Assembly (NCBI RefSeq): GCF_018140925.1
Contig: NZ_CP073315.1
Location: 3,100,001 to 3,164,000 of the forward strand
Direction: 5' to 3'
Length of the DNA stretch: 64,000 bases
From: Psychrobacillus sp. INOP01
GTDB lineage: Bacteria > Bacillota > Bacilli > Bacillales_A > Planococcaceae
A model generated the notes under the pieces. It worked only from the letters and a program-made list of their open reading frames with translations. It was not told the origin of the DNA and searched no databases. This document shows positions 47,110 to 62,759 of the stretch, piece after piece. The position numbers were made by a program, and so were the translations under genes. Position 1 is the stretch's first letter. Each line of letters opens with the position of its first letter.

Positions 47110-47149
47110 TAATGTTACACACACAAACATAGAAGTGGAGGGGAAATTG

Positions 47150-48088
47150 ATGGCAAAAGTACTTGTCACTCCAAAATCATTCCAAAAGTACAAGCAGAAG
47201 CCTTTTGAAATGTTGCAGGAAGCAGGCTATGAAATAATCGAAAATACGACAGGAAAAACCTTATCAGTGGAACAGTTGCTTGAACTTGCTACTGACGACA
47301 TTATTGGAATAATTGTCGGTGTTGATCCACTTTCTACTGAAGTTCTTGAAGCGTTCAAAGGATTGAAGGCAATTTCGAAATATGGGGTTGGGATGGATAA
47401 TATCCATTTAGGAAAAGCAAAAGAAATGGGTATTTCAGTAAGAAATGCAATCGGCACGAATAACATCTCAGTTGCTGAACTTGCTATCGGTCTAATGTTC
47501 GAATGTGGCCGTAGACTTTCTTCTACTATTAATGAAGTAAAGCAGTTCAGCTGGGAACGCACGATTGGCACGGAGCTAACAAACAAGAATTTATCGGTTT
47601 TCGGTGGAGGGCAAATTGGTAAAGAAGTGGCTAAGCGAGCACGGGGCCTAGAAATGAACGTTACAATTTATGATCCATATTTTAATGACCAAGAGTTTCT
47701 GGATACTTACGAAGTCACAAGAACAGTGGAGTTTTTAGATGCTGTTAGACAGGCAGATATCCTCACTCTTCATTTGCCAGTTACTGAGGATACCAAACAC
47801 CTCATCAATGAAAATATCTTGAATCAGATGAAACCAAGCGCAATTTTAATTAATACAGCACGTGGAGAACTTGTTGACGAAAAAGCCCTTTATGAAGCAC
47901 TAAGCAATGGTTCGATTGCAGTTGCAGCACAGGATGTCTATTCACAGGAACCTCCTTCTAAAGGAGATTCGCTCGTGCAACTACCTAATTTTATACTTAC
48001 ACCACATATTGGTGCATATACAAATGAAGCTATAGAACGGATGGCAGTCGTTTCAACACGTAATCTTCTTGAAATGCTGGAGGCATAG
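47150..48088 (+). CDS. D-2-hydroxyacid dehydrogenase, phosphoglycerate dehydrogenase-like
   Basis: A 312-residue D-isomer-specific 2-hydroxyacid dehydrogenase. The NAD turn is FGGGQIGKEVAKRA. The catalytic Arg lies in KYGVGMDNIHLGKAK to NTARGELVDEKAL, followed by the glutamate and the histidine in LTPHIGAYTNEA. It lacks the C-terminal ACT domains of biosynthetic SerA, so a catabolic hydroxyacid (for example a sugar acid or its phosphate) is likely. ATG 47150 after GGAGGGG is the start. It is tightly packed with the lactonase gene downstream. Confidence 0.88.
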   Translation: MAKVLVTPKSFQKYKQKPFEMLQEAGYEIIENTTGKTLSVEQLLELATDDIIGIIVGVDPLSTEVLEAFKGLKAISKYGVGMDNIHLGKAKEMGISVRNAIGTNNISVAELAIGLMFECGRRLSSTINEVKQFSWERTIGTELTNKNLSVFGGGQIGKEVAKRARGLEMNVTIYDPYFNDQEFLDTYEVTRTVEFLDAVRQADILTLHLPVTEDTKHLINENILNQMKPSAILINTARGELVDEKALYEALSNGSIAVAAQDVYSQEPPSKGDSLVQLPNFILTPHIGAYTNEAIERMAVVSTRNLLEMLEA

Positions 48089-48099
48089 GAGTGAACCAA

Positions 48100-49062
48100 A
48101 TGAGAGAACGTAAGGTCACCACTGTAAGAGGCGATATCAGTCCAAACGAAATGGGTATCACACATGCTCATGAACATTTATTTATCAAGGCTGGCCAGCC
48201 TGCGAAGCAAGATCCGGCACTTCGTATTGATGATTTTGAATGGACGATGCAGGAACTGAAGGAAATCCAACTTCTCGGTGTACAGACTATAATAGATGCC
48301 CAGCCTGTGGGTTCAGGACGTCATGCTCGCTGGCTTACTAAAGTAGCCGAACAAACTGGTCTAAATATTCTCGCCTCCACCGGCTTTCATAAACTATCCT
48401 TTTATCCTGAAGATCATTGGATTCGCACAAAAGACTCAGAGCAACTCGCTGAACTTTTTATAAAAGAATTGACAGAGGGCATGTTCGCAGATGGAGAGGC
48501 CAGTTGGCCGTCGGAGCAACTTCCTGCGCGTGCGGGATTGATCAAGACAGCCGCTGATATGCAGGGAACAGCGGGAAGATATTTGGATTTGTTCCGCTCT
48601 GCTGCAAAAGCTGCCATCGCTACTGGTTCTCCTGTGATGAGTCATACCGAACTTGGCTATCACGCGCTAGAACAAATTGCACTGTACGAGAGCCTGGGGG
48701 TTCCTGCCGAACAGTTAATTATATGTCATCTCGACAGAAAAATGGAAAATGCGGACTATATGCTACATGTTGCAACTACTGGTGTGTTTTTGGAACTTGA
48801 TACAATTGGTCGCTTTCATTATCATTCTGATGAAGAAGAAGTGGAACTTATCCTTCGTCTAATTGAAGCTGGTCATGAAGATCAAGTTCTACTTAGCCTC
48901 GATACAACAAGAAAACGGATGAAGTATTACGATGGAGGAAGTTTTGGCATGGATCATCTATTAGCTCATTTCATTCCCATGCTGAAAAATGTAGGTGTGA
49001 CAGAAGAAATCATTCAAAAGATGCTTGTAAACAACCCAGCCAAAGCTTTTTCAAAACGATAA
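48100..49062 (+). CDS. Phosphotriesterase-family lactonase
   Basis: A 320-residue amidohydrolase-superfamily barrel. ITHAHEHLF supplies the first two metal histidines, GRHARWLTKVAEQTGLNIL a conserved strand, GLIKTAADM the lysine that bridges the metals when carboxylated, SHTELGYHAL and ICHLDRK further histidines, and LLSLDTTRKR the final aspartate. Family members in sugar operons hydrolyse sugar lactones and phospho-furanose lactones. Here it would open the lactone made by one of the dehydrogenases and pass the acid to the dehydrogenase or aldolase nearby. ATG 48100 after TAGGAG is preferred. Confidence 0.88.
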   Translation: MRERKVTTVRGDISPNEMGITHAHEHLFIKAGQPAKQDPALRIDDFEWTMQELKEIQLLGVQTIIDAQPVGSGRHARWLTKVAEQTGLNILASTGFHKLSFYPEDHWIRTKDSEQLAELFIKELTEGMFADGEASWPSEQLPARAGLIKTAADMQGTAGRYLDLFRSAAKAAIATGSPVMSHTELGYHALEQIALYESLGVPAEQLIICHLDRKMENADYMLHVATTGVFLELDTIGRFHYHSDEEEVELILRLIEAGHEDQVLLSLDTTRKRMKYYDGGSFGMDHLLAHFIPMLKNVGVTEEIIQKMLVNNPAKAFSKR

Positions 49063-49079
49063 GAAAGGGTGATAATTGA

Positions 49080-50021
49080 ATGGTACAACTACCTGAAAAG
49101 GCATCAGTTCCAACAATGTATTTTATAGGTGTAACAACGACAAAATCGTCTATTATGATGTTATTTCCAAAATGGGCAAAGATACTTGGCTTTCCAAACG
49201 CTGTTCTCAAAGGAATTGATTTGGAGATTCATGCAGATCCATCTGACTACCGGAAAGTTGTAGAATTCATTAAAAACGATGAACATTCTCTTGGTGCTCT
49301 TGTAACTACACATAAAATCGATTTGTATGAGGCTGCCAAAGACTTATTTGATGAGATGGACCCCTATGCAAAAATGTTTGGAGAACTGTCTTGTATCTCT
49401 AAAAAGGAAGGCAAACTGCGTGGACATGCCAAGGATCCAATCAGTAGCGGAATGGCACTTGAACGGTTTATACCAGAAAATTATTGGAGCAACAACGAAG
49501 GTGAGACATTGCTTCTCGGTGCTGGTGGAAGCGCGATTGCGATTTCTTCTTATTTAATGAACCGTGAAAAAGGTAAAGAAACACCGAAGCGTCTGGTCAT
49601 TACTGATATGAACGAAAAACGTTTAGAAGAGATCAAGCATATTCTAACTGAAGTCAATCCTAATGCGAATGTAGAGTATAATCTCATTTCTAGTGCTGAA
49701 GAAAATGATGCATTGCTTCAATCCCTAGCAGACAATTCACTCATCATTAATGCGACTGGACTTGGGAAAGACAGACCTGGATCGCCACTGTCCGATTATG
49801 CACAGTTTCCTTCTAGCAGCTTTGTCTGGGAACTTAACTATCGTGGAGATCGAGATTTTATGTATCAGGCACTTGCTCAAAAGGAGAAATGCCAGCTTCA
49901 AGTGGAAGACGGTTGGATTTACTTCTTGCACGGCTGGACTCAGGTCATCGCAGAAGTATTCCACCTTCCGATTGAAGGAGAAACATTCCAGCAGATTGAA
50001 GAAATTTCAAATCAATCATAA
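49080..50021 (+). CDS. Shikimate/quinate dehydrogenase-like oxidoreductase
   Basis: A 313-residue protein with the AroE plan. The N-terminal substrate domain contains a FIGVTTTKSSIMMLFP strand and ALVTTHKIDLYEAAKDLFDE, which holds the lysine corresponding to the catalytic VTxPxK region. Then comes a Rossmann domain with LLGAGGSAIAISSYL and the SLIINATGLGKDRPGSP loop. It is longer than AroE (about 270 residues) and the N-terminal signature SxSPxxHN is changed to TKSS, so shikimate itself is an unlikely substrate. In this operon it probably acts on another hydroxy or keto acid. The ATG at 49080 is 17 bases after the lactonase stop. Confidence 0.72.
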   Translation: MVQLPEKASVPTMYFIGVTTTKSSIMMLFPKWAKILGFPNAVLKGIDLEIHADPSDYRKVVEFIKNDEHSLGALVTTHKIDLYEAAKDLFDEMDPYAKMFGELSCISKKEGKLRGHAKDPISSGMALERFIPENYWSNNEGETLLLGAGGSAIAISSYLMNREKGKETPKRLVITDMNEKRLEEIKHILTEVNPNANVEYNLISSAEENDALLQSLADNSLIINATGLGKDRPGSPLSDYAQFPSSSFVWELNYRGDRDFMYQALAQKEKCQLQVEDGWIYFLHGWTQVIAEVFHLPIEGETFQQIEEISNQS

Positions 50022-50050
50022 TGATTATTAGTAGAAAGAAGGTCATTTAA

Positions 50051-50626
50051 ATGAAAGAACCAGTAAAAGCTTTAAATATCGATTTTAACTTAGCCACAGG
50101 ACTGTCGACTACAAGAGAATCAACTAAAAGACAATTATCCCGCATGAAAGGGATGTACTACGATGAACAGGCTTTTGACGAAAAAGTTGCTAAAGAAAAT
50201 GATCCGCTTATCTATGAATTCTATGAGCTTGATGTACCTCAAACAGAAGGTGATATCTTGTTTGGTACAAGCATTGTGTATCCAGGTAAAGTGGGCAATG
50301 AATATTACATGACGAAAGGTCATTTCCATACGATTTTAGAAACCGGTGAAGTATATTACTGCCTGAGTGGCGAAGGTTACATGTTAATGGAAAATCCGGA
50401 AGGCGACTGGCAGATTGAAAAGTTTGCACCAGGTCAAGCTGTATATGTACCGCCTCGTTATGCACACCGAAGCATCAACACAGGAGACCAACCTCTAGTC
50501 ACTTTCTTTTCTTTCCGTGCCGATGCAGGTCATGACTATGGAACAATTGAAACAAAAGGATATCGTAAACTGGTTGTAGAAAAAAATGGCAAAGCGGAAG
50601 TCATTGATAACCCAAAATGGGCTTAA
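50051..50626 (+). CDS. Cupin-type phosphoglucose isomerase (GPI, archaeal type)
   Basis: A 191-residue cupin. KGHFHTILETGEVYYCLSG provides the HxH...E metal motif and PPRYAHRSIN the final histidine. The surrounding sequence (QTEGDILFGTSIVYPG, EYYMTKGHFH) matches the GPI family first known from Pyrococcus, which interconverts glucose 6-phosphate and fructose 6-phosphate. It is unusual in Bacillales, which already carry the standard enzyme, so here it may isomerise a different sugar phosphate from this pathway. ATG 50051 has an AGAAGG site. It lies between the AroE-like and KDPG aldolase genes. Confidence 0.83.
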   Translation: MKEPVKALNIDFNLATGLSTTRESTKRQLSRMKGMYYDEQAFDEKVAKENDPLIYEFYELDVPQTEGDILFGTSIVYPGKVGNEYYMTKGHFHTILETGEVYYCLSGEGYMLMENPEGDWQIEKFAPGQAVYVPPRYAHRSINTGDQPLVTFFSFRADAGHDYGTIETKGYRKLVVEKNGKAEVIDNPKWA

Positions 50627-50641
50627 GGAGCTGAAAAGGAT

Positions 50642-51286
50642 ATGTTGATGAAGCATCAAGTAATCTCAAAAATAACAGACTCTGGCCTTGTTGCAGTTGT
50701 ACGGGCCGATGATACAGAACAGGCTAAAAGAATTACAGAAGCTGCTTTGAGAGGTGGTGTCTCGGCAATTGAAATTACTTATACAATTCCTGGTGCTACA
50801 GAAGTCATCCGAGAATTAGCAGAAGAGTTCAAAGAGGACATCCTCATCGGAGCTGGTACAGTGCTAGACGCTGAAACTGCTCGCATAGCCATTTTGGCAG
50901 GATCTCAATATGTGGTAAGCCCTTATTTCAGTGAAGCTACAGCGACTCTTTGCAATCGATATCAAATACCATATATGCCCGGTGTTATGACAATTGAAGG
51001 TGTCGTGAAAGCGTTGGAAAGCGGCGCAGATATTTTGAAAGTTTTTCCTGGGGAACTTATGGGACCTAAAGTAATCAAAGCGATAAAAGGTCCGATTCCT
51101 CAAGCTAATCTTATGCCTACAGGCGGTGTCAGTGTGGACAATGTTGGTGAGTGGATTAGTGCTGGAGCAGTGGCAGTAGGAGCTGGTGGTAGTCTAATCG
51201 GTAAGCCGGATGTAGACGGTTACGAACAAATTACAAAAACAGCGAAACGTTTTATAGAACAAATCCAACAGGCACGCCAAAAATAA
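50642..51286 (+). CDS. 2-keto-3-deoxy-6-phosphogluconate/4-hydroxy-2-oxoglutarate aldolase
   Basis: A 214-residue class I aldolase. VVRADDTEQAKRITEAALRG is the N-terminal arm, IEITYTIPGA has the catalytic glutamate (about residue 43), GAGTVLDAETA is conserved, and Lys133 in ILKVFPGE forms the Schiff base. It splits a 2-keto-3-deoxy sugar acid phosphate (KDPG or KDPGal) into pyruvate and glyceraldehyde 3-phosphate. This provides the exit to central metabolism for the sugar acids made by the dehydrogenases and lactonase encoded upstream. The operon ends here with a terminator. Confidence 0.9.
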   Translation: MLMKHQVISKITDSGLVAVVRADDTEQAKRITEAALRGGVSAIEITYTIPGATEVIRELAEEFKEDILIGAGTVLDAETARIAILAGSQYVVSPYFSEATATLCNRYQIPYMPGVMTIEGVVKALESGADILKVFPGELMGPKVIKAIKGPIPQANLMPTGGVSVDNVGEWISAGAVAVGAGGSLIGKPDVDGYEQITKTAKRFIEQIQQARQK

Positions 51287-51297
51287 AAACTGAAAAG

Positions 51298-51336
51298 ACA
51301 CGAATTCTTAATTAGAGGATTTCGTGTTTTTCTTTT
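51298..51336 (+). terminator. Rho-independent terminator
   Basis: ACACGAA...TTCGTGT hairpin with a T-rich tail, just after the aldolase gene. It marks the end of the 40597-51286 operon. Confidence 0.75.
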
Positions 51337-51357
51337 CAATTAGGAGGTAAATGCATT

Positions 51358-51978
51358 ATGGAAAGCATCATTTTTGATCTAGATGGAACACTCTGGGATT
51401 CTAGAAGAACAGTATCCAAATCCTGGTCCCAAGTTGTTCAAGAAGTAGAGTATGGACGGGGAGAGGTTACTGAAGATGACCTGAAAAAAACAATGGGGCT
51501 ACAGGTCAAAGACATCGCTGCCCGCTTATTTGACTATTTGGATGAAGCTAAACAAATGGAACTCATTCTTAAATGCTGTGAAAGAGAGCAGGTAGATTTG
51601 ATACGTGAGGGGGGCATTTTGTACCCCAACTTAGCGGAAGTACTTCAAAAACTATCCTCTCGATACAGCTTATTCATCGTAAGCAATTGTCAAGAAGGGT
51701 ACATTGAATCATTCTATACATATCATGGTCTAGAAAAATACTTTCTTGATTTTGAAAACCCAGGTAGAACCGGTTTAACTAAAGGAGAAAATATTAAACT
51801 TCTGATGGAACGTAATAACATATCATCTGCAGTTTATGTGGGTGATACACAAGGTGATTGTGATGCAGCCAAACTTGCTGGCATTCCGTTTGTATTCGCT
51901 AATTACGGGTTCGGAAATCCAGACAGCTATGACTACTTGATCCAAAAACCTTCAGATTTAGTAACGCTGTTCCTTTAA
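51358..51978 (+). CDS. HAD-family phosphatase (phosphoglycolate phosphatase-like)
   Basis: A 206-residue HAD hydrolase. IIFDLDGTLWDS contains the nucleophile and general acid aspartates, FIVSNCQEGYIES the motif II serine, a lysine (GLTKGENIK) serves motif III, and YVGDTQGDCDAAKLAG is motif IV. A helical cap (about 15-80) marks subfamily I. It could dephosphorylate a sugar phosphate or 2-phosphoglycolate. It is separated from the operon by a terminator but starts behind a strong TAGGAGGT site; read-through or its own weak promoter may serve it. Confidence 0.87.
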   Translation: MESIIFDLDGTLWDSRRTVSKSWSQVVQEVEYGRGEVTEDDLKKTMGLQVKDIAARLFDYLDEAKQMELILKCCEREQVDLIREGGILYPNLAEVLQKLSSRYSLFIVSNCQEGYIESFYTYHGLEKYFLDFENPGRTGLTKGENIKLLMERNNISSAVYVGDTQGDCDAAKLAGIPFVFANYGFGNPDSYDYLIQKPSDLVTLFL

Positions 51979-52344: not shown

Positions 52345-52360
52345 TGTAACCGGTTTCACA
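52345..52360 (+). promoter_or_regulatory. LacI-type operator 1
   Basis: TGTAACCGGTTTCACA, a near palindrome around a central CG, the typical form of a LacI/GalR operator. A second copy lies 57 bases downstream. Confidence 0.8.
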
Positions 52361-52401: not shown

Positions 52402-52416
52402 TGTAACCGGTTTCAC
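52402..52416 (+). promoter_or_regulatory. LacI-type operator 2
   Basis: TGTAACCGGTTTCAC, identical over 15 bases to the copy at 52345. The 57-base offset between them (about 5.4 turns) would allow looping or cooperative binding of the LacI-family protein encoded at 61734. Confidence 0.8.
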
Positions 52417-52473: not shown

Positions 52474-53823
52474 ATGGGCAATGAAATTAAGATTTTATCC
52501 CCCTGTGGAATGTTGGGATATGGGTTTCCAGAGGAATCATTCTTACGGGGAATGGAAGAGGAACCCCATGGGATTGTAGTGGATGCAGGATCGACAGATG
52601 CAGGGCCGCATAAACTTGGAGCCGGTGTTTCAATTGTTAGTAGGCGCGCTGCCAAAAAGGATTTAACGATTATATTGGAAAATGGAGTTCCAAGGAAAAT
52701 ACCAATTATTATTGGCTCAGCTGGCGGAGCAGGAGCACAGGCTCATGTAGATTGGACGATGGACATTATCGAAGAAATTTTGAAAGAAGCGGGTCTTCAA
52801 GTAAAAATAGCAATTGTATGGGCGGATATTCCAAATGATTTAGTAATTGAAGCAAATCAACAAGGAAGGATAAAGCCCTTAAGCCCAAATATACCTCCTT
52901 TAAATGAGGATATTATTCTTGAGACAAATGGAATTGTAGCGCAAATGGGCCATGAACCAATATTGGAAGCTCTACAAAAAAAGGCAGATATTATTGTTTG
53001 TGGAAGAGCATATGACCCTTCCCCTTTTGCAGCAATCGGAATTTTTCATGGAAAAGATCCTGGGCTTTCCTATCATCTTGGAAAGATATTGGAATGCGGC
53101 GCTCTTTGCGCGGAGCCAGGAACGACGAAGGATAGTATTTTAGGTATTATCGGTGAGACCTCTTTCAAAGTGAAGTCATTAAACCCGAAGCGTAAATGTA
53201 CATCGATAAGTGTGGCGGCACATACTTTTTATGAGAAAGAGCATCCATATATTCTTCATGGGCCTGGATTCACTTTGAACCTAGAGCAATGCGAGTTTAA
53301 AGAATTAGCGGATGGAGTTGTGGAAGTTTCTAATAGCAAGTATATTCCCACCGAGCAGCATTTCATAAAGCTGGAGGGGGCTCGGAAAGTTGCTTATCGT
53401 ACATTTGTATTGGCCGGTATAAGAGATCCGATTTTATTGGAAAACGTAGAAGATATAGAAAACCGAGTGAAACAACAAGTAAGTGATTACTATGATGAAA
53501 TTCCAAGCAATGATTACAAAGTGAATTTTTACAATTACGGGATGAATGCAGTTCTAGGCGATAAAGAAAAAGAAGTATTCAGTGGACATGAAATAGGTGT
53601 TGTAATAGAGGTAATTGCAAAGGACCAGGAGCTTGCAAATAGTATTTGTGCAACTGCAAGATCCACTTTTTTACACTTTGCTCACGAAAAAAGAAAGTCC
53701 ACGGCAGGTAACCTTGCTTTTCCTTTTGCGCCAAGTGATATTGAGTTCGGACCAGTATATGAGTTTTCCGTATATCACTTATTGGAAATAGCAGATAATC
53801 CGTTCCGAATTGAGTATAGATAG
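52474..53823 (+). CDS. AtuA-family (DUF1446) protein
   Basis: A 449-residue cytoplasmic protein. The start ILSPCGMLGYGFPEESF, then GIVVDAGSTDAGPHKLG and PIIIGSAGGAGAQAHVDW are the conserved blocks of the DUF1446/AtuA family, named for acyclic terpene utilisation in Pseudomonas but of unsettled biochemistry. The neighbour is its usual small partner, DUF4387. Here the pair heads a sugar-import and glycohydrolase operon with ribokinase, so a terpene role is unlikely and action on a ribosylated or sugar-acid compound is inferred. It is first after a LacI-controlled promoter, with a GAGGAGTGG site. Confidence 0.85.
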   Translation: MGNEIKILSPCGMLGYGFPEESFLRGMEEEPHGIVVDAGSTDAGPHKLGAGVSIVSRRAAKKDLTIILENGVPRKIPIIIGSAGGAGAQAHVDWTMDIIEEILKEAGLQVKIAIVWADIPNDLVIEANQQGRIKPLSPNIPPLNEDIILETNGIVAQMGHEPILEALQKKADIIVCGRAYDPSPFAAIGIFHGKDPGLSYHLGKILECGALCAEPGTTKDSILGIIGETSFKVKSLNPKRKCTSISVAAHTFYEKEHPYILHGPGFTLNLEQCEFKELADGVVEVSNSKYIPTEQHFIKLEGARKVAYRTFVLAGIRDPILLENVEDIENRVKQQVSDYYDEIPSNDYKVNFYNYGMNAVLGDKEKEVFSGHEIGVVIEVIAKDQELANSICATARSTFLHFAHEKRKSTAGNLAFPFAPSDIEFGPVYEFSVYHLLEIADNPFRIEYR

Positions 53824-53834
53824 GAGGGGGGGAA

Positions 53835-54146
53835 ATGGAAAAGTTATTTGATATCGCAAAGGTATTAAGAAGTAAAAATTCAGGACCATTTGAACTGACA
53901 ATGGATATTTTATTTGATAGTGCAGAAAAATATCAGCGGGTTAAAAATTCAAATAAAATTACAACCGAGATGATCTGTAGTCTTTATAACATTACCGAAA
54001 GTGATGTCCGTCATATTGTGTTTTTCGATCCTGCAATGGGCATAAAGATAACAATTCTAAGGGAAGTTTCCTCTGGAACTGTTGGAGATAGAGATGTATA
54101 CGGCGCGCAGCAACATGCTCCGTTGATGAACATACTAATAGATTAG
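53835..54146 (+). CDS. DUF4387-family protein, partner of AtuA-like protein
   Basis: A 103-residue protein with the DUF4387 pattern: ELFDIAKVLRSKNSGPFELT (here starting MEKLFDIAK), then DIFFD-type and RHIVFFDPAMGIKITI segments, and the HAPL ending. The family occurs next to, or fused with, AtuA-like proteins, so the two probably form one enzyme. Function is unknown. It starts with ATG 53835 after the very strong site GGAGGGGGG. It is found between the AtuA-like and ribokinase genes. Confidence 0.82.
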   Translation: MEKLFDIAKVLRSKNSGPFELTMDILFDSAEKYQRVKNSNKITTEMICSLYNITESDVRHIVFFDPAMGIKITILREVSSGTVGDRDVYGAQQHAPLMNILID

Positions 54147-54158
54147 GGTGTTAGACAT

Positions 54159-55052
54159 ATGAAAAAAATAGCAGTGGTCGGCAGTATAAATAGTGATTAT
54201 TTTGTGGAGGCAGATGTCCTTCCTAAGACAGGTGAGACAATACTTGGAAACAACTTTTTCAGAGCACTCGGAGGAAAGGGTGCAAATCAGGCTGTGGCTG
54301 CCTCTCGTTTAGGAGCACAGGTCACGTTTTTTGGCTCTATTGGCAATGACGACAATGGGAATTTTGCAAAGGATTCTTTTCTTCTGGAAAACGTAGAAAC
54401 TTCTTTTCTTAACGTTGCGAATAACGCACATACAGGAGCAGCCTTCGTTGAAATTAGTAATTCTGAAAACCGAATCATTGTAATTCCAGGAGCTAATAGC
54501 CATACAAACAAGATATATGTAAAAAGTCACTTAGAACAGATTTTGATGCACGATATTTTTATTTTCCAACTGGAGATACCAATGGAAACGATTGAGTACC
54601 TTATACCAATTCTCTATGAGAAACAAAAGATAATTATTGTGAATCCTGCCCCATCTCAACTAATAAAACAAGACATTCTAGAGAAAATTACTTATTTAAC
54701 TCCAAATGAACATGAATACCAATTGGTTCTCGATCAGCCAGACAGTAGCATGGAGGATGCATTGAGCAAATTTCCTAATAAGCTCGTGATAACATGCGGT
54801 CAAGAAGGGGTTAAATTTTTTGATGGGAGCCGCATAGTTAATGTTCCAGCCCGAACAGTTCAAGCAGTAGATACAACTGGTGCTGGAGATACTTTTTGTG
54901 GTGCATTTGCTGTTGCTCTGGCGGATGGTAAAGAATTGAGTGAATGTATTCGCTTTGGAAATATTGCTGCAGCCTTGTCCGTACAGAAGAAGGGTGCACA
55001 AGCTGGCATGCCGTATAGAAAAGACTTAGATCAATTTTTAAAAAGGAGCTAA
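54159..55052 (+). CDS. Ribokinase (PfkB family)
   Basis: A 297-residue kinase with full ribokinase motifs: VVGSINSDYFVEADVLPKTG at the start, GGKGANQAVAASRLG as first PfkB signature, NPAPSQ and LTPNEHEY in the middle, and DTTGAGDTFCGAFAVAL with the catalytic aspartate. It phosphorylates ribose or a similar pentose or nucleoside. Its place before an oligosaccharide-type importer and two ADP-ribosylglycohydrolase-like genes suggests that free ribose is released from the imported compound. The start follows AGGGTG. The symbol rbsK is avoided because it may not act on free ribose. Confidence 0.88.
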   Translation: MKKIAVVGSINSDYFVEADVLPKTGETILGNNFFRALGGKGANQAVAASRLGAQVTFFGSIGNDDNGNFAKDSFLLENVETSFLNVANNAHTGAAFVEISNSENRIIVIPGANSHTNKIYVKSHLEQILMHDIFIFQLEIPMETIEYLIPILYEKQKIIIVNPAPSQLIKQDILEKITYLTPNEHEYQLVLDQPDSSMEDALSKFPNKLVITCGQEGVKFFDGSRIVNVPARTVQAVDTTGAGDTFCGAFAVALADGKELSECIRFGNIAAALSVQKKGAQAGMPYRKDLDQFLKRS

Positions 55053-55055
55053 TCC

Positions 55056-55958
55056 ATGACACAGAAGGGGATATTCCAAAGAATTAAAAAAGACTGGGTC
55101 ATTTACTTAATGATCTTTCCAGCTATATTATATTTTGTCATTTTTAATGTGATTCCTATTATCGGCATGAAGCTCGCTTTTCAGGATTACCGTGTTATTG
55201 GGGATAATATATGGGGCGGTTTGAAGCATTTTAAAGTGCTATTCGATTCACCAGCTTTTTTTGATGTATTACAAAATACGATTATTATTAGCTCCATGAA
55301 AATGATTTTCTTTTTTCCAATCCCGATTATACTTTCATTGATGATCAATGAACTTAGAAATGGGCCTTTTAGAAAATACGTACAATCTGTTATTTATTTA
55401 CCTCACTTCCTATCATGGGTCGTTATTGCAGGTGTATGGATTAGCCTACTTAGTCCTGATGGCGGTGGCGTAAATGTCATTAGAAATTTTTTTCAACTAC
55501 CAACGCTCGATTATATGACAAGTAAAGATCATATTCGATGGGTTCTTGTATTTTCGGAAATGTGGCGAAGTGCAGGATGGGATTCCATCATTTATCTTGC
55601 AGCTATTATGAAAATCAGTCCTTCTTTGTATGAAGCAGCACGTATAGACGGAGCTTCTACTTTACAACAAATGCGTTTTATCACGTTTCCACAACTGTTA
55701 AGTACAGTCGTAGTAGTTTTCATATTAAATTTAGGTTTTTTCTTGAATGCAGGATTTGACCAAGTATTCAATATGATTAACGATTCTACGATTAGTAAAA
55801 TCGATATTCTGGATACATATGTGTACCGTATCGGAATTCTCAATGGACAATACGCTTATGCAACGGCAGCCAGTCTTTTTAAAGGGGTAATTGGTGTTAT
55901 TTTAATACTGAGTACACATTTTATATCGAAAAGGCTGACGGGGAAAGGAGTGTGGTAA
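55056..55958 (+). CDS. LplB-type ABC importer permease
   Basis: A 300-residue CUT1-class permease with six helices. The EAA loop is EAARIDGASTLQQMRFITFP, and FPAILYFVIFNVIPIIGMKLAF and YLPHFLSWVVIAGVW are typical of the LplB group. It is clearly related to the permease at 17586, here with a normal ATG (55056) and AAGGAG site four bases after the kinase stop. It pairs with the permease encoded next. No ATPase lies in the operon. Confidence 0.92.
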   Translation: MTQKGIFQRIKKDWVIYLMIFPAILYFVIFNVIPIIGMKLAFQDYRVIGDNIWGGLKHFKVLFDSPAFFDVLQNTIIISSMKMIFFFPIPIILSLMINELRNGPFRKYVQSVIYLPHFLSWVVIAGVWISLLSPDGGGVNVIRNFFQLPTLDYMTSKDHIRWVLVFSEMWRSAGWDSIIYLAAIMKISPSLYEAARIDGASTLQQMRFITFPQLLSTVVVVFILNLGFFLNAGFDQVFNMINDSTISKIDILDTYVYRIGILNGQYAYATAASLFKGVIGVILILSTHFISKRLTGKGVW

Positions 55959-56852
55959 TTGATGCAGCGTTTTTTTAAGCGTTTTACTTGGTCCCACTTT
56001 ATCATTTCTACAATTTTGTTAATCCTGTCATTTATGATTCTGATTCCAATCCTGAATCTTTTAGCAATGTCCTTCTCAGACCCTTTACAGGTCCATAAAC
56101 TTAGTGGGTTGGATATTATTCCGAAAGGTTTTTCATTTATCAATTATGAGGTGTTATTTTCAAATCCACTTATAGTTAGAAGTATATTCAATAGTTTATT
56201 TCTTACAATTGTCGGAACCGCTCTAAATCTGTTTTTAACAGCTTTAGCTGCGTATGTATTAGCGAAGACAGACTTTGTAGGAAAACGAGTTGTTGTTGTC
56301 TTTTTAATAGTGATCATGGTTTTTGAGCCCGGTCTTATACCGGAATATTTACTAGTTAAAGACCTAGGATTACTAGACACTTATGCTTCTCTATTACTAT
56401 ATAAAACGATTAATATTTTTTATTTGTTTATCCTGATGCGTTTCTTCGAAGAAGTACCAGATGGTATTTTGGAGGCAGCACGTATCGATGGAGCGGGACA
56501 TTTTCGAATCTTTACTCGAATTATGTTACCACTATCCAAACCTGGTTTGGCTACATTGGGGTTATTTTATGGGGTCTATCATTGGAACGAATATTTCCGC
56601 GCAACAATTTACTTAACCGATCCAAATAAATGGCCATTGCAAGTAGTTCTTCGTCAATTTGTAGTTGAAAGAGACAATACTACTCTCTTAGGAGCACAGA
56701 ATGTCCTTTCTTATGAGCAAGTCCAAGCACTAGATTTTGGTTCTTTACAAGCGGGAACAATTATTATTTCCATCGTCCCATTGCTTGTTTTCTATCCTTT
56801 TATTCTTAAATATTATGCGAAAGGAACACTAGAAGGAGGGGTAAAGGATTAA
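55959..56852 (+). CDS. LplC-type ABC importer permease
   Basis: A 297-residue CUT1-class permease. EAA loop EAARIDGAGHFRIFTRIMLP, the GVYHWNEYFRATIYLTD segment and the ending YAKGTLEGGVKD are characteristic. It starts at TTG 55959 directly after the stop of its partner, or at ATG 55962; AAAGGAG lies 8 or 11 bases before. It forms the pore with the permease at 55056 and receives ligand from the lipoprotein at 56902. Confidence 0.92.
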   Translation: MMQRFFKRFTWSHFIISTILLILSFMILIPILNLLAMSFSDPLQVHKLSGLDIIPKGFSFINYEVLFSNPLIVRSIFNSLFLTIVGTALNLFLTALAAYVLAKTDFVGKRVVVVFLIVIMVFEPGLIPEYLLVKDLGLLDTYASLLLYKTINIFYLFILMRFFEEVPDGILEAARIDGAGHFRIFTRIMLPLSKPGLATLGLFYGVYHWNEYFRATIYLTDPNKWPLQVVLRQFVVERDNTTLLGAQNVLSYEQVQALDFGSLQAGTIIISIVPLLVFYPFILKYYAKGTLEGGVKD

Positions 56853-56901
56853 GTCGTATGTTCAAGTTGAGTTGTAACACCAAACTAAAGGGGGAAATGA
56901 A

Positions 56902-58362
56902 ATGAAGAAGATGCTTTTATTGGTTTTAGCTTTTGTCATGATTTTTGCAGCTGCTTGCTCTAATGATTCAGATGATGCGAGTGATGCAACAGTCGATAAA
57001 GATGGAGTAGTTACACTTAAAGTTGTATTTAAAGATGAAGGACCATCCAATCCAGTGGCAGTTAAATACTTTGCTAACTTAGAAAAGGCTTTAAAGGAAG
57101 ATAAAGATTTGAATGTTAAGTTTGAATTAGTAGAAATGCCACAAGGTAACTATGCAGAGAAGTTAAATCTACTTTTAATGAGTGGAGATATCCCAGACTT
57201 AATATACTTCCAAGGTGGAGATCAGCAAATTGCTAATCAGGATTTACTAGAGGATCTAACTCCTTATATTGAAAAATCCGAGTATATCAAAGATATTATG
57301 CTACCACATAACGAAGAAAGAATTAAAAACTATCCATACCTACTTTGGATTAAACCATTGGATTCGAAAACACCAGTTATTCGTAAAGACTGGTTCGAAA
57401 ATGTTGCTAGTTCAGATGCACTAATGGTAGACCCAACAATTGAAAACTATCATGCATTCTTTAAAGAAGTTGTACAAAATGCAGACGGTGGTAAGCCATC
57501 TTATGCAGTAACGGTAGCTGGAGATATTGCCGAACTAGATTCTATTTTCAAAATGGCTTTTGGCTTGAACCAAACTTGGCTAGAACAGGATGGAAGTTAT
57601 ATAAACTCTAAAGTTTCTGAGCAGGAGAAGGCGAAATTGACTTTCTACAATCAATTATACGAAGAAGGATTATTAGATCCACAGTATTTAACGAAGCAAT
57701 GGGATACAAAGGAAGAAGCCTTCTATGATGGCGACGCAGCTGTAATTACCGGTACAAACGGAAAGGTTATTGACATTTATAACGGGAAAATGACACAAGT
57801 AAATGGTGCGGACGCAGAGCTTGTCGTACTTCCACCCGCAAAAGGGGAATACCAAGGGTTTATTGCTACAGATATTACGAAAGAATCTCGTGGATTAGCT
57901 ATATCATCTCAATCTAAGAGCAAAGATGTGGCTTTTGAGGTGTTGGATTATTTAGCTAGTCCAGAAGGGCAAGTACTAGATCGTCTTGGCTTTGAAGGTG
58001 AGCATTTTAATATTACAGATTCTGGAACTGAGTTAACAGAAAAATACTACAATGAATGGTACTCAAGATTTTGGGAACCAGAGGCTTTTGAACTGGAAAA
58101 ACCACTTGTTACTCCATTATTAAGTGAACCAGCACAAAATTCAAGAGACCTTGCAAATGAATTCTATAACCCTGATAACAGTTTCATAATCCCTGAGGAA
58201 TTTGTTTCAAAGTGGGATGCAATGGAAAATATTTATAAAGACTTTTCTGCAGATGTTATTACAGGAAAACGACCAGTTAGCGAGTTCGATGATTATGTAA
58301 AAGAGTGGAATAAAGCTGGCGGAGCAGAAATTACGGAATATGCTAACGAAACAATCAAGTAA
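56902..58362 (+). CDS. LplA-type substrate-binding lipoprotein
   Basis: A 486-residue lipoprotein: signal peptide with the lipobox AAAC (Cys about 19), acidic linker, then an SBP_bac_1-type domain. GDIPDLIYFQGGDQQIANQ, TPYIEKSEYIKD and VIRKDWFENV match the LplA group. It lacks the calcium-loop sequence of the receptor at 19550, so ligands probably differ. It starts after AAGGGGG and is followed 12 bases later by the first ADP-ribosylglycohydrolase gene. The ligand is likely to contain a ribosyl-type glycoside, by inference from the enzymes. Confidence 0.9.
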   Translation: MKKMLLLVLAFVMIFAAACSNDSDDASDATVDKDGVVTLKVVFKDEGPSNPVAVKYFANLEKALKEDKDLNVKFELVEMPQGNYAEKLNLLLMSGDIPDLIYFQGGDQQIANQDLLEDLTPYIEKSEYIKDIMLPHNEERIKNYPYLLWIKPLDSKTPVIRKDWFENVASSDALMVDPTIENYHAFFKEVVQNADGGKPSYAVTVAGDIAELDSIFKMAFGLNQTWLEQDGSYINSKVSEQEKAKLTFYNQLYEEGLLDPQYLTKQWDTKEEAFYDGDAAVITGTNGKVIDIYNGKMTQVNGADAELVVLPPAKGEYQGFIATDITKESRGLAISSQSKSKDVAFEVLDYLASPEGQVLDRLGFEGEHFNITDSGTELTEKYYNEWYSRFWEPEAFELEKPLVTPLLSEPAQNSRDLANEFYNPDNSFIIPEEFVSKWDAMENIYKDFSADVITGKRPVSEFDDYVKEWNKAGGAEITEYANETIK

Positions 58363-58374
58363 GGGGTAAAATAA

Positions 58375-59532
58375 ATGGTTTCTTTTCAAGATCGAGTAAA
58401 GGGAGTTCTTCTATCAACAGCACTTGGTGACGCAATGGGAGCAACAATTGAAAAATTAAGTTATCAAGAAATCAAAGAACAATATGGCCGGGTGGAATCG
58501 CTAGAAACAAAATGGTATAAGGCGGATATCCCAGAGGAGAAAAGACTAGGGAGGATGCGTGGAAGTGGAATAATTACAGATGATACATTAATGACAAATG
58601 CATTGATACAAGTGTATTTGACAAAGAAAAGACATCTCGATGCGTATGACATGGGTGATGAATTCATCAAAGAGATTGCGTATAAAAAGCAATACATTCC
58701 CGAGTTTGGGAAAGAAGCAATGATTATTGATCGGTTGTTTTATCCAGAAAAAAATATTTTTATACGACATGTGTTAGCAAACTGCGAGCCAAGAGAAGGC
58801 GGCATTGGCAATATGGTTAACTGTGGAGCAGCTATGTATATATCACCTATTGGAATAGTCAATGCAGGTAACCCAAAGGCTGCGTATGATGAAGCGATTT
58901 TATTTGCCATAGGTCATCAAAGTAGTTATGGACTAGAGGCGGCTGGAGTATTAGCCGCCTGTGTTGCTAAAGCGTTTGAACCGAATATCACAATCGATGA
59001 GATAATTGAAAACGCCATATTCTTTGCGAAAGATGGAACGAAGGAAGCTATAAAAGATTTAACAACTGCAGCAAAAGAATTACGCACCAAAAATGCCGAC
59101 ATGGATGAAGTAATCCAAGTCCTTCAAAAGAAGATGGAAAAGTATTCACCTATGAAAGATGATGTTCATCGGAAATTTGAGAAACTCGGTATTCCATCGA
59201 ATCATTATACACCAAGTAGGCTATTTTCTATTGAAGAGCTTCCGATGGCACTTGCCTTTATCGTATTAAATGATGGTGATTTCTATACCTCTATTTATGA
59301 CGGTATAAACTCCGGCAGAGATACAGACTCGATCGGAGTGATGATTGGTGTAATTTTAGGGGCTATGCAAGGTGTTGGTGTTATAAAAAACGAAGATATA
59401 AAGCTATTGGAAGAAACAAATAAAACAAATTTCACCCTTCTAGCAGAGGAATTTGCTGAGGTAGCAGAAATGATAATAAAAGAAGATCTTGCGCTAAATC
59501 AAAAGAGAAACGGTCTATTCGACTCGGAATAA
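58375..59532 (+). CDS. ADP-ribosylglycohydrolase family protein
   Basis: A 385-residue all-helical DraG/ARH-type protein. It opens with DRVKGVLLSTALGDAMGATIE. GIITDDTLMTNALI carries the TDD motif that binds two magnesium ions. GAAMYISPIGI is conserved, and near the end SGRDTDSIGVMIGVILGA completes the metal site. All metal-binding residues of the family are present, so it is probably active. Family enzymes hydrolyse N- or O-ribosyl bonds. In this import operon a small glycoside, not a modified protein, is the more likely substrate. Cytoplasmic, no signal peptide. Confidence 0.87.
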   Translation: MVSFQDRVKGVLLSTALGDAMGATIEKLSYQEIKEQYGRVESLETKWYKADIPEEKRLGRMRGSGIITDDTLMTNALIQVYLTKKRHLDAYDMGDEFIKEIAYKKQYIPEFGKEAMIIDRLFYPEKNIFIRHVLANCEPREGGIGNMVNCGAAMYISPIGIVNAGNPKAAYDEAILFAIGHQSSYGLEAAGVLAACVAKAFEPNITIDEIIENAIFFAKDGTKEAIKDLTTAAKELRTKNADMDEVIQVLQKKMEKYSPMKDDVHRKFEKLGIPSNHYTPSRLFSIEELPMALAFIVLNDGDFYTSIYDGINSGRDTDSIGVMIGVILGAMQGVGVIKNEDIKLLEETNKTNFTLLAEEFAEVAEMIIKEDLALNQKRNGLFDSE

Positions 59533-59551
59533 ATGAATTGGAGTGAATCAC

Positions 59552-61648
59552 GTGTTACATGAAAATTATTTGGAAAAGGTGTATGCGGGATTCTTGGGAA
59601 TGAACGTTGGAATTAGACTAGGTGCGCCGTTAGAACCAACAGAATGGACATTCGAAAGAATTTTACAAGTTCATGGGGATATAAAAGGATACGTTAAAGA
59701 TTATAATATGTTTTCTGCAGATGATGATGCAAACGGGCCTTTATTCTTTATACGAGCTCTCTATGATGATGCGAGAGATAGAGAAGTACGAGCAGAAGAT
59801 GTAGGCAAGGCTTGGTTGAACTATTGTCGGGAAGGTATTGGAATGATTTGGTGGGGTGGAGAAGGTATTAGTACAGAGCATAACGCCTACCTCAATTTAA
59901 AAAATGGCATTCAAGCTCCTAAATCAGGATCAGTTGAGCAAAATGGAATTGTGTTAGCAGAACAAATAGGCGGTCAAATTCTTATTGATAGCTGGGGGTT
60001 AATATACCCGCAAAATGTTGAAAAAGCTGCTCATTTTGCGGAGATAGCTGCCAGTGTATCTCATGATAAAGAAGGTCTTTACGGTGCAAGATTTATGGCT
60101 GCGTGTATATCTAAAGCTTTTACAGCAGCGTCAATTCGTGAAATAATAGACGCAGGATTGTCGGTGATTCCTAAGGAGTCCGTGTATGCAAGAATAGTGA
60201 ATGCAGTGTTAGAATTTTATCTTCAGAAACCAGATGACTTTCGTGAATGTCGCAATTATTTAGAAGCTGAATGGGGATATGATAAGTATCCTGGAATATG
60301 TCATATTATCCCGAATGCAGGGGTTTGTATTCTAGCGCTACTTTATGGGAATGGAGATTTTGCAAGAACTATTGAAATAGCCACAATGTGTGCATGGGAT
60401 ACAGACTGTAACGCTGGAAATGTGGGGACAATTACTGGTGTATACGGTGGAATTGAGGGTATTCCTCTCCATTATAGAAAACCAGTAAACGATTGTATTG
60501 TTGCTTCCAGTGTCTCAGGCTACTTAAATATTGTGGATATTCCAACGTTTTCAGCAGAGCTAGCGCTATTAGGGTATAAGATGGCCGGCGAAATTCCACC
60601 TGAAAATCTTCAGAACAAAGTGAAAAATGGAGAGGTTTTCTTTGATTTTGAGCTTCCAGGATCTACACATGGGTTTAAGTCAGACAATCCTTTTAAAGCA
60701 TTTATTCAGCATAATAGTAAAGTCGGACAGGGATCGTTGGAGGTCATTTTTGACCGGATGTATGGAGGCAGTCAAAGTAAAATATTTTATAAGCCTTTCT
60801 ATCGTCGAGATGAATTCAATGATGAAAAGTATAAACCAACTTTTGCTCCTAAAGCATATAGCGGTCAGCAAGTGGCGGTTGATATGTATTTAGATAAATG
60901 GCAAGGTTCGGGTATTTTTATCACACCATACATTCGTGATTCCTTTACTAAGGAATGCTTGATATTAGACAAAGTTGTACTTGAAAATAATAGTTGGAAT
61001 AACATACAATTTACAATTCCAGATACCAATGGAGCATTGATAGATGAAATTGGATATATTCTGGAAAGTCCATCTACTTCCCTTAACCGTGCATTTGGTG
61101 CAATCTATTTGAAGAATTTCCATATCTTTGGGAACTCTGAATATACTATAGACTTTTCGAAGCAATCTGTTGAATTTCTTAGTATTACACCATTTGCTCA
61201 TCAAAATGGGAAGTGGTCGATAAATGGAGACAAGATGAGATGTTTATCTGAAGGGAATTGTTCGAGTTATACAGGAAATTACTATACAAAAGATGCAATT
61301 ATTGAATTCGAAGTTCACCCAATTAGTGGTACTAGTCACCAAATGATTTTTAGAGCGCAAGGAATTCAGCGACATTATCTTGTAGGATTTGATGGAGTAG
61401 ATAAAGTATCCTTGATCTTAAATGATTTTGGCTACGAGCGTTTAATCACGGTGCCATTTACTTGGGAAATTGGTGTAAAGTACCGTTTCCAGGTTCAATA
61501 TAAAGGGAAAAATATTCGGTTTTCTATCGACGATGAAACTATTATTGAATATGAAGATGACAAAATTACTTCTGGGATGATTGGAATTGGGTGTTTAGAT
61601 AAGGGAGAAGTAGATATCTCATCATTTATAGTGAAGGAAGTAGGATGA
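59552..61648 (+). CDS. ADP-ribosylglycohydrolase-family protein with C-terminal LamG-like domain
   Basis: A 698-residue protein. The N-terminal 330 residues are DraG-like (YAGFLGMNVGIRLGAPLEP; MFSADDDANGPLF in place of the usual TDDT; GVCILALLYGNGDF; WDTDCNAGNVGTITGVYGG). The second half (about 370-698) is a beta-rich region with two sandwich-like domains, the last resembling a LamG/concanavalin-like domain. The first metal motif is changed (DDDA) but acidic residues remain. No signal peptide. GTG 59552, eight bases after GGAG, is preferred to GTG 59543 that overlaps the site. Probably acts after or alongside the shorter paralogue at 58375, on a larger substrate. Confidence 0.82.
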   Translation: MLHENYLEKVYAGFLGMNVGIRLGAPLEPTEWTFERILQVHGDIKGYVKDYNMFSADDDANGPLFFIRALYDDARDREVRAEDVGKAWLNYCREGIGMIWWGGEGISTEHNAYLNLKNGIQAPKSGSVEQNGIVLAEQIGGQILIDSWGLIYPQNVEKAAHFAEIAASVSHDKEGLYGARFMAACISKAFTAASIREIIDAGLSVIPKESVYARIVNAVLEFYLQKPDDFRECRNYLEAEWGYDKYPGICHIIPNAGVCILALLYGNGDFARTIEIATMCAWDTDCNAGNVGTITGVYGGIEGIPLHYRKPVNDCIVASSVSGYLNIVDIPTFSAELALLGYKMAGEIPPENLQNKVKNGEVFFDFELPGSTHGFKSDNPFKAFIQHNSKVGQGSLEVIFDRMYGGSQSKIFYKPFYRRDEFNDEKYKPTFAPKAYSGQQVAVDMYLDKWQGSGIFITPYIRDSFTKECLILDKVVLENNSWNNIQFTIPDTNGALIDEIGYILESPSTSLNRAFGAIYLKNFHIFGNSEYTIDFSKQSVEFLSITPFAHQNGKWSINGDKMRCLSEGNCSSYTGNYYTKDAIIEFEVHPISGTSHQMIFRAQGIQRHYLVGFDGVDKVSLILNDFGYERLITVPFTWEIGVKYRFQVQYKGKNIRFSIDDETIIEYEDDKITSGMIGIGCLDKGEVDISSFIVKEVG

Positions 61649-61657
61649 ATACTGAAG

Positions 61658-61690
61658 GATGGGAGATGTGCATCTTTTCCCCATTTTACT
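61658..61690 (+). terminator. Possible weak terminator between the glycohydrolase and LacI genes
   Basis: ATGGGAGATG-TG-CATCTTTTCCCCAT can fold with a bulge, followed by TTTT. Weak; the LacI gene may be transcribed both by read-through and from its own promoter. Confidence 0.35.
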
Positions 61691-61733
61691 ATGAATCTTT
61701 TCTACTATAATTCGGCAAGGAGTTTGAGCTTTC

Positions 61734-62759
61734 GTGAAAAAAAATGTAACGATTAGGGATGTAGCAAAAGAATCAGGTTTATCCATCGCTACTGTTTCAA
61801 GGTATCTAAACGGAAAAGGCTATTTAAGTGAGCAATCAGAGAAAAAGATTAAAGATGTAATGGAACGACTAGATTATAAGCCAAATGAAGTAGCTAGAAG
61901 TCTATCAAATGGAAAAACGAATACGATTGCACTAATTATACCAGATATCACGAATCCATTCTTTCCCGAATTGGTAGTTGCCATTGAAGGTGTAGCAAGA
62001 ATAAGAGGCTATAGCTTATTTTTAATAAATACACAAGAAGAGCTACTTCATTCAAATGGTTTTTGGAGAAGTCTTGAAAGTCGATTTATCGATGGTTTGA
62101 TTTTGGGTTCCTTTCAATTTACTGGAGAGGTATTAAAAGGGATGAAGAATATGAATCTACCTTTTGTTCGTATTGATCGTGCGGTAGGTGATGATGAAAA
62201 TAATTCCTTTGGCGTGGATAACAGCGAAGGGGCAAAACTTGCAGTGGAGCATTTAATCGAGGTAGGTTGTAAGAAGATTGCCCATATAAGTGGACCAAGC
62301 TCTTATCCTTCTTCTTCAGAGAGGCTAAAAGGCTACCGAGAAGCGTTGAAGAGATATCTTCCTCTACAGGAAGAATGTATTTATGAGGGGGATTTCTCTT
62401 TAGAAAGTGGCCAAAATCTCACCAAACTGTTATTGAATAATCACAGAGATTGTGATGGGATTTTCTTTGGAAACGATCTCATGGCAATCGGTGGGCTAAA
62501 AACGTTAAAGCTAATGAATATTCGAGTGCCAGAAGAAATAGCGATTATTGGATTTGATGGAATTCAACTAACTCAAATGGTAGACCCTGAAATAAGTACG
62601 ATTGAACAACCAATTTATGAATTAGGGAAACTAGCAACAACTCACCTAATCGACATGATCGAAAAAAAGAATGAAGGCAGTGATTACGTTAAACTAGATG
62701 TGCATTTGAGGAAAAGGGAGTCTACCTTGGGGATACAACCCTCATCGGGGGCCATGTAG
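61734..62759 (+). CDS. LacI-family transcriptional repressor
   Basis: A 341-residue LacI/GalR regulator. The N-terminal helix-turn-helix VTIRDVAKESGLSIATVSRYLNG is complete with the hinge helix (PNEVARSLSNGKT), followed by a periplasmic-binding-type effector domain (NTIALIIPDITNPFFPELV to IGFDGIQLTQMVDPEISTIEQP). It is probably the repressor that binds TGTAACCGGTTTCAC at 52345 and 52402 and releases on binding a sugar. GTG 61734 follows AAGGAG by 11 bases. The gene stands at the end of the operon it likely controls. Confidence 0.92.
   Translation: MKKNVTIRDVAKESGLSIATVSRYLNGKGYLSEQSEKKIKDVMERLDYKPNEVARSLSNGKTNTIALIIPDITNPFFPELVVAIEGVARIRGYSLFLINTQEELLHSNGFWRSLESRFIDGLILGSFQFTGEVLKGMKNMNLPFVRIDRAVGDDENNSFGVDNSEGAKLAVEHLIEVGCKKIAHISGPSSYPSSSERLKGYREALKRYLPLQEECIYEGDFSLESGQNLTKLLLNNHRDCDGIFFGNDLMAIGGLKTLKLMNIRVPEEIAIIGFDGIQLTQMVDPEISTIEQPIYELGKLATTHLIDMIEKKNEGSDYVKLDVHLRKRESTLGIQPSSGAM

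Follow-up and report, generated by a model that had tools for sequence, protein, structure and literature searches.

Homologues of ADP-ribosylglycohydrolases (PF03747; hereafter the DraG family) are best known for protein modification, and the characterised hydrolases of this family that we know of act on ADP-ribosyl bonds. The AtuA family, encountered here beside them, formerly bore the name DUF1446. The yegTUV genes of Escherichia coli have been linked to ADP-glucose and glycogen and are said to have no clear function (PMC10819704). The methylaspartate pathway leads to citramalate, and an enterobacterial cluster for glutamate fermentation has a DUF1446 gene downstream of mal, the fate of citramalate there being called unclear (PMC4682846); the AtuA of the terpene pathway figures as an acetate-releasing lyase among enzymes 'characterized or tentatively identified' (PMC4847356). 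Here we analyse 64,000 nucleotides of Psychrobacillus sp. INOP01 (contig NZ_CP073315.1, positions 3,100,001 to 3,164,000; hereafter the window), in which two DraG-family genes share an operon with AtuA, DUF4387, ribokinase and importer genes.

The operon (52474-62759; Table 1) comprises AtuA, DUF4387, a ribokinase, two permeases, a lipoprotein, two DraG-family hydrolases and a LacI regulator, all on the + strand and separated by short gaps or none. The initial annotation had placed these parts in one operon and profile matches confirmed it: the gene set is real and conserved, and is probably regulated as one unit. From the sequence evidence we propose, with moderate confidence, that it serves the catabolism of a conjugate between ribose and a 2-hydroxy dicarboxylic acid of the citramalate type; a single conjugate as the source of both ribose and acid is the simplest way to read the two together, and we hold it slightly the likelier side of even. 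The lipoprotein and the two permeases would import the ribofuranosyl conjugate, and one or both DraG enzymes would hydrolyse its ribofuranosyl bond(s) through a metal site like that of the ADP-ribosylhydrolases (the long enzyme perhaps aided by a CBM66-like domain of furanose-binding type). The ribokinase would then convert the freed ribose to ribose-5-phosphate, and the pair resembling CmlAB (citramalate lyase subunits A and B) would cleave the freed acid without coenzyme A (CoA), giving acetate plus a 2-oxoacid, which for citramalate would be pyruvate. We infer the sugar to be ribose, the acid citramalate or a near analogue, the link between them glycosidic, and the steps to follow this order. 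An outline of this kind (import of a ribosylated compound, cleavage by DraG, phosphorylation of the pentose, and AtuA/DUF4387 acting on the rest) had been put forward beforehand and finds support in the comparative genomics.

The conservation of the operon was assessed in 80 loci, the best of 349 candidates recovered when genomes were scanned with a long-DraG alignment; genes were counted by tblastn, because the open reading frame (ORF) caller hides genes in GC-rich loci. AtuA and DUF4387 were both present in 73 of the 80, encoded side by side as they are in the window. The short DraG gene was found in 78 loci (in six of them below 60% identity), the lipoprotein in 75, the permeases in 74, the ribokinase in 65 and LacI in 36; importer and ribokinase accompanied DraG genes in most loci (69 and 60 of 80, respectively), and up to four DraG genes occurred per locus (L035, L040). 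On these counts a chance neighbourhood was rejected. In three of them (L056, L057, L068) AtuA/DUF4387 is replaced, at the operon start, by a CitE-type (HpcH/CitE) lyase and a CaiB-type (family III) CoA-transferase, and AtuA was not matched in the corresponding genomes (E up to 0.001). Neither acid module was seen in four loci, three of which (L061, L070, L071) are cut by a contig end upstream; in L069 (Clostridium sp. CF012) AtuA lies elsewhere (63% identity), adjoining DUF4387 and another DraG gene.

The acid half of the pathway would be the task of the first two genes. Residues 3-442 of AtuA align to PDB 9erq_A, 'Citramalate lyase, subunit A (cmlA)' (E 3.7e-132, about 50% identity), and residues 3-102 of DUF4387 match 9erq_B, 'subunit B (cmlB)' (E 5.1e-33). 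The pair, at first regarded as being of unknown chemistry, thus has solved homologues named as citramalate lyase subunits A and B, and its genomic context agrees; the identity of the lyase is that given by the names of PDB chains 9erq/9evf, for which no publication was found in the literature searched. An AtuA match was present in 98 of 398 sampled genomes of the phylum, and 40 regions were chosen around such homologues (three genomes gave two regions each), with gene identities verified on representatives. In 32 of these the AtuA was at least 44% identical to that of the window; 24 of the 32 carried a methylaspartate ammonia-lyase in the same stretch (23 also glutamate mutase E; a class I fumarase accompanied eight of the 24), and four of the 32 the TctA carboxylate transporter. 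Clostridial kin of AtuA/DUF4387 are found mostly with methylaspartate-pathway genes, and a lyase role for the DUF1446/AtuA gene fits the enterobacterial glutamate-fermentation cluster. The cleavage ascribed to the terpene-pathway AtuA would, by analogy, be of the same kind of bond as that of citramalate lyase. AtuA as an acyclic-terpene enzyme was itself rejected, given the full-length CmlA match and the lack of any terpene-pathway gene among the genes scanned.

Among DraG-linked AtuA proteins, those of the main type group into a single clade (support 100/100; 26 of 74 used in the tree), whose sister is a Tct-linked group (96/92), with the methylaspartate-linked group beside them. The 23 methylaspartate-linked AtuA proteins have 152 columns conserved at 95% or more, and 106 of these are kept at that level in the 74 DraG-linked ones. 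A separate AtuA clade (35-38% identity) is again paired with DraG genes, in the order LacI, AtuA, DUF4387, importer, long DraG (48%) and DraG in L174, and LacI, importer, three DraG genes, AtuA and DUF4387 in L175. The pair that replaces AtuA/DUF4387 was tested in L056, one of the three loci: its lyase is nearest in PDB to malyl-/methylmalyl-CoA lyase 5ugr and to the citrate-lyase-beta-like 5vxc (which we take to be citramalyl-CoA lyase), and its CoA-transferase to 4ed9 (a CaiB/BaiF family protein) and succinate-hydroxymethylglutarate CoA-transferase 9br7. By analogy, this CoA-type pair may represent a second route to break the same sort of acid. A citramalate-type acid as one product is well supported, and is the firmer of the two product assignments. 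In other genomes, AtuA/DUF4387 was observed close to tripartite tricarboxylate transporter genes (L163, L166, L176), and a more distant AtuA pair (41%, L237) adjoins a 2-hydroxycarboxylate transporter (PF03390), which suggests that there the acid is imported directly.

For the sugar half, the kinase of the window is the only match to TIGR02152 at E up to 1e-60 in its genome, and eight of ten further kinases scored from DraG loci exceeded the ribokinase threshold of 299.65. In a tree of DraG-locus kinases and eight ribokinases from outside the operon, the clade of the window (in which the gene sits between DUF4387 and a permease) groups with outside ribokinases (99/97), of which three come from Paenibacillus-type genomes. 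Of the two clades whose gene follows the long DraG gene, one groups with another outside ribokinase (100/98) and the other stands apart from both these placements; the L083 kinase joins the second copy of its own genome (100/99). These placements indicate that the operon acquired a ribokinase on at least two occasions. Among the operon genes scanned there was neither a pentose isomerase nor a fructokinase. Ribose as one product is well supported, with good though not high confidence.

The bond between the two halves would fall to the DraG-family proteins, which score 133.8 and 167.2 bits against PF03747 (curated cut-off 26.2) and are the only two such genes in the whole genome. In the short form, E26, T68-D69-D70-T71 and D316-T317-D318-S319 are kept in 64 of 64 aligned proteins; in the long form, the catalytic Glu and the paired Asp motifs are invariant in 77 of 77, except for one gap at E31, and ADDD replaces TDDT, the first Thr being absent. 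We take these positions to be the catalytic Glu and the metal-site Asp residues. Many ADP-ribosylhydrolase structures were among the VIA-align matches to the DraG model, and the ARH3 mutants E41A, D77A and D314A were named among them; residues from about 365 to 530 of the long protein were barely covered in this comparison. Its C-terminal domain is like the CBM66 of levanase in both sequence and fold. Homologues of ADP-ribosylglycohydrolases are widespread, occurring in 220 of the 398 sampled genomes of the phylum.

Around other DraG genes the aglycone partner appears to change. In L200 (3923-13810) the order is LacI, ribokinase, lipoprotein, two permeases, DraG, HutH and HutU, the last two (histidine ammonia-lyase and urocanase) above curated cut-offs; DraG-HutH-HutU recurs in L233 (4319-9045) and L234 (9051-13609), without an adjoining importer or kinase, and the three genomes belong to one family. 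Ribosyl-histidine is suggested by these loci as a further substrate, within a modular scheme that combines an importer, a DraG protein and a ribokinase with enzymes for the aglycone. DraG homologues were also examined in 40 additional regions, picked by DraG similarity, where 11 of 42 recognised DraG genes had a PfkB kinase on the same strand no more than two genes away (PfkB made up 13 of 592 genes overall); eight of these 11 are divergent PfkB proteins, not established as ribokinases. As in E. coli yegUV, a DraG gene adjoins a divergent PfkB kinase in L204, L206, L207, L211, L212, L213, L219 and L220. Elsewhere (L193, L195, L187), DraG genes were seen with DUF4127 and an oxidoreductase dependent on flavin adenine dinucleotide, and a NAGidase/GH84-type enzyme lies by DraG genes in L195 (by Pfam) and L193 (by size and place).

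Two operators, TGTAACCGGTTTCA, end 59 and 116 bases ahead of the AtuA start, and exact TGTAACCGGTTWCA sites occur only twice in the 4.3 Mb genome, both of them here (the reversed control pattern has none). A near-palindrome site (at most two mismatches to the palindromic form, within 400 bases upstream of AtuA) was found for 27 of the 28 loci whose LacI match exceeds 50% identity, against 6 of the 45 that lack such a match. Through the two operators LacI would repress the operon; the regulator scores best against an RbsR model, yet below the cut-off of that model. The lipoprotein gene of L040 and L041 precedes AtuA, as do two further DraG genes, and has a second pair of sites upstream; given this second operator pair, those DraG genes are suggested to belong to the same regulon.

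Several observations weigh against a ribosyl-citramalate pathway. L173, third in the distant AtuA clade, shows no DraG gene in the stretch around its AtuA; ribokinase was not seen in 15 of the 80 fetched stretches (four of them, L061, L070, L071 and L099, cut short), and an importer is missing from the loci L033, L073 and L093. The kinases of L032 (299.5) and L057 (289.8) fall 0.15 and 10 bits below 299.65, and the operon kinase, as the sole such match in its genome, may serve free ribose too. Three stretches of the modelled DraG half (28-37, 39-60 and 96-144) have low confidence, and the CBM66 likeness alone would point to fructofuranose. Neither ribosyl-citramalate nor a like natural product was found in the literature listings, one of which was flooded by riboside papers, and we know of none. 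Lastly, 16 of the 152 AtuA columns switch residue (at 90% or more) in the DraG-linked type, including Y47 to K and R62 to K, and for this reason the acid handled in the window may be a citramalate analogue rather than citramalate.

An operon of the same architecture acting on such an analogue (e.g., a 2-substituted malate with an extra polar group), to yield acetate and another 2-oxoacid, is a somewhat unlikely alternative, favoured by the type-switching residues of the DraG-linked clade (K47, K62, C11, G12, C176, Y339). The first two of these are common to the sister group (K47 and K62 in 3 of 3), which accompanies TctA/TctC transporters, and the replacing lyase and CoA-transferase families take several malate-like substrates; against it stand the roughly half-identical sequence shared with CmlA and the retention of more than two thirds of the strongly conserved columns.

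The importer bears on a second alternative, an oligosaccharide pathway in which DraG would cut another furanose (arabinose, fructose, apiose) and AtuA/DUF4387 would handle an acid substituent. The lipoprotein has distant matches to AlgQ1, an arabino-oligosaccharide-binding protein and others, so that the oligosaccharide importer of the initial annotation would be a family-level assignment; a small glycoside of an acid fits the importer as well. Such a pathway would also agree with CBM66, which binds fructofuranose in levanase, and with the several DraG genes of some loci. We consider it improbable, since the operon acquired ribokinase more than once, the scanned genes offer neither of the other sugar enzymes sought, and the characterised hydrolases of the family known to us act on ADP-ribosyl bonds. 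Nor does any operon gene support degradation of rhamnogalacturonan II or arabinan, bacillithiol-like sugar malates, tetrahydromethanopterin or ADP-ribose salvage, largely as we know these pathways. That the DraG proteins do their textbook job (protein de-ADP-ribosylation or ADP-ribosyl salvage) and merely accompany an acid-degradation operon would suit their homology and fold, and is very improbable in view of their importer and ribokinase neighbours in most loci, the extra DraG copies behind copies of the same operator in L040 and L041, and the scanned operon genes, which include no ADP-ribosyltransferase or nucleotide hydrolase.

Table 1. Operon genes and operator copies, with positions in the window
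Feature	Position	Strand	Basis or remark
LacI-type operator copy 1	52345..52358	.	TGTAACCGGTTTCA, 14 bases
LacI-type operator copy 2	52402..52415	.	same 14 bases as copy 1
AtuA-family protein, CmlA-like (citramalate lyase subunit A homologue)	52474..53823	+	PF07287; PDB 9erq_A
DUF4387 protein, CmlB-like (citramalate lyase subunit B homologue)	53835..54146	+	PF14330; PDB 9erq_B
Ribokinase	54159..55052	+	TIGR02152, 308.6 bits vs cut-off 299.65
ATP-binding cassette (ABC) importer permease	55056..55958	+	PF00528
ABC importer permease, second	55959..56852	+	PF00528; in-frame ATG at 55962
Solute-binding lipoprotein	56902..58362	+	PF01547; signal sequence with lipobox-like Cys (by eye)
Short DraG-family hydrolase, 385 aa	58375..59532	+	PF03747; MJ1187 and ARH3 matches
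Long DraG-family hydrolase, 701 aa, C-terminal CBM66-like domain	59543..61648	+	PF03747
LacI-family regulator	61734..62759	+	PF00356 and PF13377

No ABC ATPase gene lies within the operon; for importers of the SBP_bac_1/BPD type in Bacilli the ATPase is often shared and encoded elsewhere. On the opposite strand, adjoining the operon, L083 (1553-2641) and L103 (2471-3565) carry an ORF of 362-364 aa, like an ABC importer ATPase by eye in L103 and judged from size alone in L083, which could provide the ATPase absent from the operon. Upstream in the window (47135-51978) there is a further sugar-acid-like gene set, including a haloacid dehalogenase (HAD) phosphatase and genes named by eye as 2-hydroxyacid dehydrogenase-, phosphotriesterase-, shikimate-dehydrogenase- and 2-keto-3-deoxy-6-phosphogluconate (KDPG)-aldolase-like, and a cupin.

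In a wider and more tentative reading, to which we give a little less than an even chance, the DraG superfamily has a large catabolic branch of aglycone-specific ribosidases that scavenge small ribosides together with a ribokinase and an importer. The aglycone would then be read from the partner enzymes (CmlAB, or a CoA-transferase with a citramalyl-CoA-type lyase, for citramalate-type acids; HutH-HutU for histidine), and the operon of the window would serve an undescribed, common ribosylated acid of the citramalate type. If true, homologues of ADP-ribosylglycohydrolases gain a metabolic job, and the scheme predicts an undescribed small molecule that is eaten by many bacteria. No description of this operon was found in the literature searched, most subscription journals being outside its reach.

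Among known systems, CmlAB (PDB 9erq, 9evf) is matched by both subunits over their full length and by adjacent genes in equal order, whereas the DraG-linked clade of the window bears its own specific residue switches. The CoA route (CoA-transferase and citramalyl-CoA-type lyase), of whose families a pair takes the place of AtuA/DUF4387 in three loci, differs in being CoA-dependent and is not present in the window. With the rbs ribose operon the window shares the ribokinase and a repressor nearest to (though under the cut-off of) the RbsR model, but its importer is of the SBP_bac_1/BPD type and it also has hydrolases and an acid lyase. Unlike that of the ADP-ribosylhydrolases (DraG, ARH3, ARH1, MJ1187), the target here is probably a small imported riboside, and the long form departs from them in its ADDD for TDDT and in its CBM66-like domain. 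E. coli yegTUV likewise joins a DraG homologue to a sugar kinase (PfkB) and a nucleoside-transporter-like protein (PMC10819704), yet its transporter is of another class and it has no acid-splitting module.

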